NCBI GenBank assembly: GCA_017465475.1
Contig: JAFTWC010000045.1
Span: 1 to 36,927, forward strand
DNA length: 36,927 nt
Origin: Lachnospiraceae bacterium
GTDB taxonomy: Bacteria; Bacillota; Clostridia; Lachnospirales; Lachnospiraceae
Direction of reading: 5' to 3'
Positions within the stretch are counted from its first letter, which is position 1. Every line of letters starts with the position of its first letter. Position numbers and translations under genes: made by a program. This document shows, in pieces, positions 8,723 through 36,927 of this stretch. Below the pieces are notes generated by a model. The model was given only the letters and a program-made list of their open reading frames with translations. It ran no database searches and was not told where the DNA came from.

Positions 8723-9310
8723 ATGAGCGGATTATTTTCAATGATGGACGAAATGGTAAATGCAACGGTAGGACGTACCATGACAAAGATGGATTCTATG
8801 GCGGCAAGCCCGTTAAAGAAATTTATCCTGAGCTGTGATACGGATAAGTTAGGAGACTGTGTGGTGAGAGGTTCCCAGATATCCAAGGAACTGTCCAACG
8901 CAGCCACCGCGATTTGCAGAAGACGTTTTAAGTGGGACGAAATCATTTTAATGGTGGTGCTTGATCCGGAGGAAGAAGGAGAAGCGGGAATTGTGTTTAC
9001 CGAAAAGGGAATTTATCACTGGTTGGAAAATGAAGAATTTGTATTCGGCCTCACCTACGAAGAAATCGATGCCTTTGGCTACCAGGGCGACAGCGTAATT
9101 CTCACCACGTCCGAAGATGATAACGTCATCCTGTTCTGCGGTGACAACGCAGAGGAAGAAAAGTACAGCAGATACATGTACAACTTCATCGCCGATATTT
9201 ATGAGTTCCGCGGACAGCTGAAGCGTCCGGAAGACGAGAAGAACGAATCGTTAAAAAGACAGGACGCAGAGGAAGTTGTAAAGGTAGAAGGAGAGGTTGT
9301 GGAGGAGTAA
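8723..9310 (+). CDS. Cytoplasmic protein of unknown function, PH-like fold suspected
   Basis: 195 residues; CGGAGGT RBS 6 nt before the ATG. No signal or membrane segment. The middle (about 70-150) has the rhythm of a bacterial PH-like domain: G-I-V-F-T-E-K-G-I-Y-H-W, then F-V-F-G-L-T-Y-E-E-I, and alternating hydrophobic strands (V-I-L-T-T, V-I-L-F-C). The C-terminus (about 160-195) is a Lys/Glu-rich tail. Monocistronic between the palindrome at 8610 and the promoter at 9373. I do not recognise a named family; PH-like assignment is a guess from strand pattern. Confidence 0.6.
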   Translation: MSGLFSMMDEMVNATVGRTMTKMDSMAASPLKKFILSCDTDKLGDCVVRGSQISKELSNAATAICRRRFKWDEIILMVVLDPEEEGEAGIVFTEKGIYHWLENEEFVFGLTYEEIDAFGYQGDSVILTTSEDDNVILFCGDNAEEEKYSRYMYNFIADIYEFRGQLKRPEDEKNESLKRQDAEEVVKVEGEVVEE

Positions 9311-35442: not shown

Positions 35443-35976
35443 ATGACATTTGATTATCCGAGCGCACCGCGGATTGCAGCCTTTTCGAAAGTCAGCAAGG
35501 AGCGGTTTGCAGCAGATTTTTCCGATGCGTTTCCTAATGAAGCAGGTCGTGCGGAGGAGATTTTTGAGAACTTAAAGCTTCCGGTCAGAGCCACTACAGG
35601 CTCTGCCGGATATGATTTCTTTATGCCGGTAACGGTTACCTTAAACCCGGGAGAGACGGCAAAGATTCCTACCGGAATCCGGGCAGAGATGGCAGAGAGT
35701 TTTGTACTTATGTTGTTTCCGAGAAGCGGTCTCGGGTTTAAGTATCGCTTGCAGTTAAACAATACCGTAGGTGTGATTGACAGCGATTACTTCTATTCCG
35801 ATAACGAAGGACATATTTTTGTAAAGGTAACCAACGATTCCAACGAAGGAAAGACGGTTGTGTTAGAAGCCGGAACCGGCTTTGCCCAGGGGATTTTCCT
35901 CCCTTACGGCATTACCGTAGACGATGCTGCAGAAGGAAAGCGAAACGGCGGATTCGGCAGTACCACGAAGAAGTAA
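35443..35976 (+). CDS. dUTPase-family nucleotidohydrolase
   Basis: 177 residues. All five trimeric dUTPase motifs can be placed: G-S-A-G-Y-D-F (motif 1), P-R-S-G-L-G (2), N-T-V-G-V-I-D-S-D-Y with the catalytic Asp (3), G-T-G-F-A-Q-G (4, with Gly-rich change from R-I-A-Q) and N-G-G-F-G-S-T (5). It hydrolyses dUTP (or a related dNTP) to the monophosphate, limiting uracil in DNA. The ~45-residue N-terminal extension and an insertion between motifs 3 and 4 (Y-S-D-N-E-G-H) set it apart from short bacterial Dut. RBS AAGGAG overlaps the end of the peptidase gene, so the two are co-transcribed. A terminator follows at 36076. Confidence 0.88.
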   Translation: MTFDYPSAPRIAAFSKVSKERFAADFSDAFPNEAGRAEEIFENLKLPVRATTGSAGYDFFMPVTVTLNPGETAKIPTGIRAEMAESFVLMLFPRSGLGFKYRLQLNNTVGVIDSDYFYSDNEGHIFVKVTNDSNEGKTVVLEAGTGFAQGIFLPYGITVDDAAEGKRNGGFGSTTKK

Positions 35977-36075: not shown

Positions 36076-36106
36076 CAGCGTGTCCATAAGGACACGCTGT
36101 TTTTTG
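36076..36106 (+). terminator. Terminator after the dUTPase-like gene
   Basis: CAGCGTGTCC (36076-36085) / GGACACGCTG (36090-36099), ATAA loop, then six T. Confidence 0.95.
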
Positions 36107-36299: not shown

Positions 36300-36719
36300 G
36301 TGCCATGATAAGATTTGCTGCGAGGGATGTCATGGTACAAAAATTGAGCTGTTTTGAGAAAGTACCATGAGGAATCCATGAAAAGAGGGATGTCATGGTA
36401 CAAAAATTGAACTGTTTTGAGAAAGTACCATGAGAAATATGAATGGGAAGCTATATCATGGTACAAGAGAAGAAGAAGAAAGGATTTTGTACCATGAGAA
36501 AACTACAAATGGAGATTATCATGGTATGAGAACAGAAAGGAAATGAGATTTGTACCATGAAGAGAATGGAAGAATGGGAAGTTCATGGTAAAAGACTAGA
36601 CATTTGAAAAACTGTGTACCATGAGGAAAATGAAAAGTAGGGAATCTCATGGTACAAGTCGAAAGTGGGGATGATTTTGTACCATGACGAGCAAGAAAAG
36701 TGGAGAATCTCATGGTAAA
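36300..36719. repeat. Array of 14 alternating half-sites at 31-32 bp steps
   Basis: TCATGGTAC (plus) and GTACCATGA (its complement) alternate. 8-bp cores start at 36300 (GTGCCATG, degenerate), 36331, 36362, 36394, 36425, 36457, 36489, 36520 (ends T), 36552, 36584 (ends A), 36616, 36648, 36679, 36711 (ends A). Steps are 31 or 32 bp throughout, mean about 31.6, i.e. three turns of B-DNA. The flanking T (before) or A (after) is present at all 14. Only the first two spacers resemble each other (ATTGA[G/A]CTGTTTTGAG); the others differ, mostly purine-rich. Confidence 0.9.
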
Positions 36720-36730
36720 AGCAAGAATTG

Positions 36731-36927
36731 TTAGTTGGTAGGAAGCGAAATAGCCCAACGAAAAGAGGAAAAAGCAAGAATCGTTGGGTGCCAAGAAGCG
36801 AAATAGCCCAACGAAAAGAGAAAAAATCAAGAATCGTTGGGTGCCAAGAAGCGAAATAGCCCAACGAAAAGAGGAAAAAGCAAGAATCGTTGGGTGCCAA
36901 GAAGCGAAATAGCCCAACGAAAAGAGA
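36731..36927. repeat. 53-bp tandem repeat, 3.7 copies, running off the window
   Basis: Units begin at 36731, 36784, 36837 and 36890 (last one cut at 36927). Units 2 and 3 differ at two positions; unit 1 has a divergent first dozen bases. Each full unit carries inverted arms CGTTGGG (for example 36782-36788) and CCCAACG (36807-36813), with GAAGCGAAATAG between them and a purine-rich link (AAAAGAGGAAAAAGCAAGAAT) shortened here in description to its A/G-rich nature. Starts 12 bp after the last CATGGTAA half-site. Confidence 0.92.

Follow-up and report, generated by a model that had tools for sequence, protein, structure and literature searches.

Phased arrays of alternating half-sites between the genes of a Lachnospiraceae bacterium: candidate platforms for protein assembly

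Introduction

Three described systems resemble, in part, the DNA element reported here: the bacterial interspersed mosaic elements (BIMEs) with their repetitive extragenic palindromic (REP) sequences, the site arrays of Lrp/AsnC regulators, and the parC sites of ParMRC plasmids. In parC of plasmid R1, ten repeats are said to flank a promoter. For BIME/REP arrays, a role in chromosome organization has been suggested (PMC2817692). In Lrp/AsnC arrays such as those of Ss-LrpB, PMC2995911 describes sites that lie on one face of the helix at two or three turns, with cooperating dimers and wrapping of the DNA. The element under study, an array of short half-sites in alternating orientation, is located in a 36,927-nucleotide stretch of DNA from an uncultured Lachnospiraceae bacterium of the gut (GenBank assembly GCA_017465475.1, contig JAFTWC010000045.1), and this entire stretch is referred to below as the window. 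The array is one of ten in its genome (G000; 3.07 Mb, 81 contigs, 89% complete). On balance, we lean toward the view that such arrays are DNA-level platforms on which phased protein dimers would assemble into complexes with two-fold symmetry.

Results

The window array consists of 14 half-sites, TCATGGTA / TACCATGA, the orientation of which alternates in 13 of 13 steps. A search of the window with TCATGGTAC, allowing at most one mismatch, gave 29 matches as compared to a mean of 5.96 and a maximum of 13 in 100 shuffles. Fourteen of the 29, on either strand, fall within positions 36300-36718 (10 exact and four with one mismatch). The steps between successive 8-mers (TCATGGTA) are 29, 33, 30, 33, 30, 34, 29, 34, 30, 34, 30, 33, and 30 bp, with a mean of 31.5 bp, such that a short step of 29-30 bp alternates with a long step of 33-34 bp. 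Given this alternation, a divergent pair, TACCATGA-N21/22-TCATGGTA, forms the natural unit; it spans 37-38 bp and is repeated every 62-64 bp, or approximately six helical turns. Two of the units are 96% identical (repeat family D4). The array had been noticed earlier by a model that was given the letters alone, and the 14 alternating half-sites of this sequence-only reading are confirmed; the phased, alternating array is real. The steps that it gave as 31 or 32 bp in fact range from 29 to 34 bp, the first half-site is TGCCATGA, and the ninth base (C) varies. The mirror symmetry, the central gap, and the second type of array described below are additional to that account.

Ten loci of this kind, designated type A, are present in G000 (C4, C5, C13, C17, which is the window, C33, C37, C48, C53, C61, and C68), and they share the same site order and steps. 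In the 20 arrays that have at least four exact sites, orientation alternates at 201 of 208 steps. Blastn ties the window array to six of the other type A loci, with 66-84% identity over alignments that include the half-sites. An exact pair pattern matched four of 80 genomes, namely G000 and, among its nine congeners, G003, G005, and G007; it matched none of the 70 genomes outside the genus. When a three-site pattern was run over genome_contigs (84,980 species), it returned 12 stretches. Three assemblies of uncultured Lachnospiraceae account for all of them: RGIG7215 (buffalo cecum), RGIG5355 (sheep colon), and SIG307. No viral contig matched the type A pattern, and an origin of the window in a plasmid or phage was set aside, there being no blastn match to it in plasmid and phage collections. 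Among the nine congeners searched with the looser pattern TCATGG-N23/28-NCCATGA, those other than G003, G005, and G007 gave isolated matches in G001 (three) and in G006, G008, and G009 (one each), with none in G002 and G004; these counts resemble the reversed-pattern control (0-2).

A motif-free scan of 347 kb of G000, with a threshold of at least six sites and one chain per 600 bp, so that the adjoining type B array described below would not appear separately, returned the window array as the sole alternating phased chain. No chain was observed in 398 kb of G007, 596 kb of G004, or one block-shuffled control of the G007 stretches; the G007 stretches scanned contain a four-site and a degenerate type A array, both of which fall under the six-site threshold. 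No other motif family emerged from the ∼1.34 Mb scanned in this manner.

Several of the arrays have orthologs in the congeners (Table 1). Seven pairings with G000 were compared, with the sites defined on the G000 row and columns gapped in either row dropped. Between species the half-sites are 94.3% identical (n = 610 bases) and the spacers 59.3% (n = 1778; Fisher p = 7e-70), with the proviso that the bases are not independent and that the alignments may lean on the sites. Multi-base differences in length between orthologous arrays amount to 20 (three times), 30, 32, 62 (twice), and 64 bp, and there are further differences of 226 bp, where the G005 array is short, and of a 10-bp run between G007 and G003. 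By gene order, the counterpart of the C61 array, which has 12 site positions (one of them degenerate), is a single pair on G007 C38, flanked by a GH9 gene and a gene read as ArgC-like. The arrays thus grow and shrink, whereas their sites are kept. The sequence-only reading had proposed selection on the sites and their spacing, and had named three findings that would make this unlikely: an array that occurs only here, indels that break the phase in relatives, and half-sites that mutate as fast as spacers. None of the three tests went against it, and its interpretation is supported. There are ten loci in G000 and arrays in three sister species, and the half-sites change far more slowly than the spacers. 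As for the phase, the differences of 20, 30, 32, 62, and 64 bp are near whole turns; those of 226 and 10 bp come in addition, and, with single-base indels scattered in the arrays, the phase is maintained approximately rather than strictly.

The internal architecture was examined in 22 type A arrays (10 from G000, nine from G007, two from G003, and one from G005; single pairs and the G007 C50 array were left out). Nine of these, representing six independent loci after orthologs are merged, follow a common plan in which half-sites lie at 0, 30, 63, 93, 126, and 155 bp (within 1 bp) on either side of a centre. This mirror-symmetric blueprint has 12 site positions, a central step of 75-77 bp with a centre of 67-69 bp, and a length of 393-395 bp when both ends are intact; judged by exact match, six of the nine arrays are missing at least one of the 12 sites. 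In the remaining type A arrays the centre measures 45, 65, or 86 bp or is absent, and the 65-bp centre of C4 contains one extra site. Centres of 45, 65, 75-77, and 86 bp exceed the ordinary 33 bp by close to whole turns, namely 1.14, 3.05, 4.0-4.2, and 5.05 turns, respectively, at 10.5 bp per turn. No convincing conserved motif was found in the central gap.

The sites are also polar. After TCATGGTA, sites that read toward the centre mostly have C as the next base (0.60) and those that read outward mostly have A (0.75). Polarity was scored on the linkers of the 33-bp steps, with L069, L070, and C37 left out. In the central-gap arrays, the left halves contain nine CA and no AC linkers and the right halves no CA and 11 AC (p = 6e-6), a count that takes in orthologs and leaves 20 further linkers with other combinations. 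The G000 central-gap arrays alone give 5:0 on the left and 0:5 on the right, with 13 others (p = 0.008), and all G000 arrays give 10:1 and 1:11 (p = 1e-4); in all-array counts, the midpoint was taken as the centre of gapless arrays. Such mirror polarity is not expected from simple tandem duplication. The dyad of the pair is enriched in A/T, with 101 of 130 bases as compared to 357 of 650 (p = 9e-7).

A second type of array, type B, adjoins the type A array in the window. Its half-site, TTCGTTGGGT, recurs with steps of 24 bp (61 of 62) and 29 bp (55 of 60) for a period of 53 bp. It repeats the logic of type A, in that the period equals five turns and the 29-bp gap carries AAA or TTT (W3) at its dyad. 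Among the placements listed, at least 12 on contigs reduce to approximately nine arrays, including that of the window, with three contig-end pairs matching. The units are nearly identical within most arrays and different between arrays. By reading, the purine-rich strand of type B follows the direction of the neighboring genes; several contigs end inside type B arrays. One type B-like array, with the half-site TTCATTGGT / ACCAAY and steps near 24/29, is present in G007 (L072:10060-10540), ∼4 kb from a type A array. When TTGGT/ACCAA was searched in 61 genomes, an array was found in G007 only, with isolated matches in G027 (one) and G063 (two). The type B search of viral contigs returned 11 stretches, none with more than four consecutive half-sites near the type B steps. 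Those on L211, L213, L215, and L216, which are high-GC contigs, resemble REP doublets, five places of which lie within one 12.5-kb phage-like stretch; the other viral matches are attributed to chance, with no expectation calculated. The resemblance among TCATGGTA, TCATTGGT, and TCGTTGGGT, together with periods that differ by about one turn, suggests that types A and B may be served by paralogous binding proteins.

Listed in Table 1 are the features of the window and the related arrays. The type B repeats of the window are 90% identical to those that end contig C8, and the gene nearest the latter, read as apt, encodes a phosphoribosyltransferase. By reading, dut is directly followed in G003 and G005 by an apt-like gene. 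Hence the window type B array probably continues at the end of contig C8, and the order of the locus is probably dut-A-B-apt.

Table 1. Features of the window and placements of related arrays. Contigs without a genome prefix belong to G000.
Feature	Location	Strand	Remarks
dUTPase gene (dut)	35443..35976	+	context; upstream of array
Terminator-like hairpin, then T run	36076..36099	+	between dut and array; read from sequence
Type A array, seven divergent pairs	36301..36717	.	period 62-64 bp; without enlarged central gap
Outermost left pair	36301..36337	.	step 29; left half-site TGCCATGA
Pair 2	36363..36400	.	step 30
Pair 3	36426..36463	.	step 30
Pair 4	36490..36526	.	step 29
Pair 5	36553..36590	.	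step 30
Pair 6	36617..36654	.	step 30
Outermost right pair	36680..36717	.	step 30
Type B array	36717..36927	.	half-site TTCGTTGGGT; steps 24/29, period 53; 4.0 copies of 53 bp; cut by contig end
Type B placements	window 36717-36927; C8, C10, C18, C24, C34/C62, C50, C52/C56, C53 near 124,369-125,011, C59		
Blueprint arrays	C5, C13, C33, C48, C61; G007 C9, C11, C46; G003 C25		
Orthologous arrays	C13 = G007 C9 = G003 C25 = G005 C8		after ribosomal protein L1 gene
Orthologous arrays	C33 = G007 C11		
Orthologous arrays	C4 = G007 C25		
Orthologous arrays	C53 = G007 C35		
Orthologous arrays	C68 = G003 C19, also G007 C56		

The arrays sit between gene-like open reading frames (ORFs) and beside unrelated genes, which include those for ribosomal protein L1, a PurL-like enzyme, an esterase, GH9, PadR, DeoR, sigma factors, dUTPase, and others. 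When up to three ORFs on each side of 21 array placements were compared all against all by blastp, ABC ATPases (four placements) and one sigma-factor-like pair were the only recurring neighbors, apart from ORFs inside arrays. ORFs overlapping some arrays were judged to be spurious. A protein-coding repeat was likewise rejected, since the window array has stops in all six frames (2-8 each) and its 62/64-bp units break the frame. Isolated sites were considered as autoregulatory leads to the binding protein and discarded: the pair on G007 C38 is the reduced counterpart of C61, and the genes that flank the one pair of G003 C14 and the four sites of G007 C50 are unrelated.

Three further observations concern the surroundings of the arrays. 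Insertion-sequence-like DNA (by eye) lies beside three type A arrays near a contig end (L022, L024, and L039), and arrays may serve as insertion targets. A type A variant with TACCATTG as the half-site on just one of the strands occurs beside different genes in two species (L039:4546-4886 and L206, ∼9130-9235; G000 C37 and G007 C50), with spacers that are partly similar, hinting at copying or relocation. Finally, another intergenic region of this genome (L127:339-560) contains tandem repeats of ∼71 bp with CACGCGGTACGCGTG-like palindromes.

Discussion

From the sites, their approximate phasing, their symmetry, and their conservation and placement, we infer protein binding, dimers, and assembly along one face of the DNA. 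An array would thus be a platform for a putative sequence-specific protein. The simplest occupant of each 37-38-bp divergent pair would be a dimer, with a bend in the DNA at the A/T-rich dyad, and with units every 63 bp (6.0 turns), successive dimers would lie on one face and be able to touch. The linkers are polar, with a polarity that flips at the centre of central-gap arrays; the subunits would point outward from the middle, and the full complex would be two-fold symmetric. Approximately ten such complexes, scattered between genes along the chromosome, could act as foci for condensation or bridging. A chromosome-organizing or anchoring role is a plausible guess suggested by the approximately ten intergenic placements, which fit it somewhat better than regulation of the neighbors; the nucleoid organizer, partition, or defence filament named in the sequence-only reading is a guess as well. 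A broader proposal is more tentative, namely that these are chromosomal elements of a new class, two-fold symmetric and helically phased platforms whose architecture is fixed and where a lineage-specific protein would build bipolar filaments, bridging or organizing the chromosome at approximately ten points, with 63-bp and 53-bp site families served by paralogous proteins. The class is called new because two of three BIME features tested fail and because no description of such arrays was found in open-access full texts, subscription papers lying mostly outside that coverage. Caution is in order, in that the protein itself could prove familiar.

Several observations weigh against the assembly of phased dimers. 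With scattered single-base indels and steps of 29-34 bp, the phase is approximate rather than absolute. The gap-phase and symmetry patterns were spotted before they were tested, on partly homologous loci, and the gap values were entered into the calculation by hand. The polarity over all G007 arrays is weak (5:3 and 2:9, p = 0.07), and the G003 arrays together give just 3:0 and 0:2 (p = 0.1). The half-site variant of C37 is asymmetric, with TACCATTG on one strand only. The window array itself lacks an enlarged central gap and shows poor polarity (linkers CC CC CC TC AC CC), and within the first 1000 bp after dut no array is present in eight of eight informative congeners (G006 being uninformative); it was either gained in this genome or lost in the congeners. 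Presence is patchy, in that the pair pattern matched nothing in six of nine congeners. Two of the six, G004 (90% complete) and G006 (72% complete), are placed beside carriers by a two-locus tree, the former with G003 and G005 (support 88 and 91) and the latter with G007 (support 93). From these groupings, loss of arrays seems likely and the system would be dispensable rather than essential, an argument limited by incomplete assemblies. No array-binding protein has been found.

Among the alternatives, the half-sites could be transposase recognition sites within non-autonomous elements, that is, mobile repeats akin to BIMEs, to the related REPINs, or to miniature inverted-repeat transposable elements, which we regard as unlikely. 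The arrays are indeed intergenic and multi-copy, with alternating orientation and variable unit number, and presence at the window locus differs between species. Old copying is possible in light of the blastn links and of spacers that, between G000 arrays, are slightly more similar than letter-shuffled ones (mean 0.41 versus 0.35; 0.37 versus 0.33), and the TACCATTG-variant arrays have partly similar spacers beside different genes. The Y1 transposase (PF01797), however, was not found in G000, G005, or G007, and one copy each occurs in G003 and G008 (two of 10 genomes). Furthermore, the half-sites lack palindromic symmetry, several of the arrays have orthologs at the same place with constrained sites, and no terminal repeat or target duplication was recognized by eye, a point on which there was no systematic test.

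Just as improbable, in our view, is a function as operator, silencer, or insulator of adjacent genes. Many bacterial regulators bind phased repeated sites, and the arrays lie between genes, that of the window after the terminator-like hairpin of dut and, by inference, before apt. On the other hand, the genes scanned on their flanks have no relation to one another, convergent genes enclose some arrays (C61, and C5 by reading), and 10-18 half-sites are far above what an operator usually needs. We give a lower probability still to a chromosomal partition system for which the arrays would be centromere-like (parC-type) sites. DNA to which ParR is bound is described as wrapping into a solenoid; known ParR sites, by contrast, are direct repeats beside parM, whereas here the sites alternate at approximately ten places. 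No parM- or parR-like gene was noticed among the ORFs near arrays, although no family search was made for one.

A row of RNA hairpins in a transcript, acting in processing, termination, or as a sponge, is very improbable. The sequence-only reading had offered hairpins as its alternative, and the 8-bp arms are in fact complementary. For type A, however, the pairing tests disfavor them: with the 30-bp gap the bases beside the arms pair no more than shuffled ones, with the 33-bp gap first-base pairing is below expectation (20 of 81 versus 36.9), and double changes at the variable site base occur in only three of 109 and one of 81 pairs. In the type B loop, six of nine positions pair less than the between-loci control, one pairs more, and two are alike or nearly so. 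The base just outside the type B arms does vary in a paired fashion (0.93 versus 0.58 in the between-loci control), which fits a stem as well as it fits a symmetric variant of the half-site. Against 4227 Rfam families, the window gave no covariance-model match at gathering level. A neutral satellite born of recent tandem duplication is hardly credible, for although units are gained and lost as whole repeats, two window units are 96% identical, and spacers are a little more alike within an array than between arrays (0.46 versus 0.41), the sites are conserved over the spacers across species, loci with very different spacers have a common geometry, and mirror polarity is unexpected from such a process.

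If the assembly of phased dimers on these arrays is correct, the geometry of a protein complex, with its units, polarity, centre, and ends, could be read from bacterial DNA sequence alone. The arrays would offer a defined handle on chromosome folding or anchoring in an unstudied clade. They would also constitute a natural mutagenesis experiment, for the genomes searched hold from none to approximately eleven arrays of two to 18 half-sites each.

Comparison with known systems

CRISPR loci have long, near-identical direct repeats and unique spacers, whereas the arrays are composed of alternating 8-bp sites; no cas genes were noticed among the ORFs near arrays, where no dedicated search was made. 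The core GTTGGG...CCCAAC recurs in the viral doublets on L211, L213, L215, and L216, with steps of 21-26 and mostly 28-31 bp; by our reading against PMC3733652, these doublets are GTAG REPs. They share a core with type B but have a GC-rich body and a GTAG-like tag, whereas type B forms long arrays, with a TTC flank and an inner stretch rich in A/G. As in parC, the clusters of repeats would nucleate a higher-order protein-DNA assembly. The repeats of parC, however, are direct and lie beside parM/parR on plasmids, and those of the arrays alternate, are chromosomal, and occur in many copies.

BIMEs are the nearest kind. Both they and the arrays are intergenic and dispersed, with regularly spaced alternating units in variable number. 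Two of the three defining features tested fail, namely the imperfect palindromes of 20-40 bp that form pairing stems and the Y1 (REP-associated tyrosine, RAYT) transposase, which was not found in G000 at 89% completeness. In place of the REP palindrome, the arrays have non-palindromic half-sites of 8 bp, helical phasing, and a mirror blueprint of ∼394 bp. The Lrp/AsnC arrays have been described for control regions with few sites, whereas 10-18 half-sites occur here at many intergenic places, and no Lrp protein is linked to the arrays, no search having been aimed at one. By analogy, the Lrp complexes of PMC2995911 show that spacing at three turns and wrapping by cooperating dimers, much as would be expected of the arrays, occur in nature.
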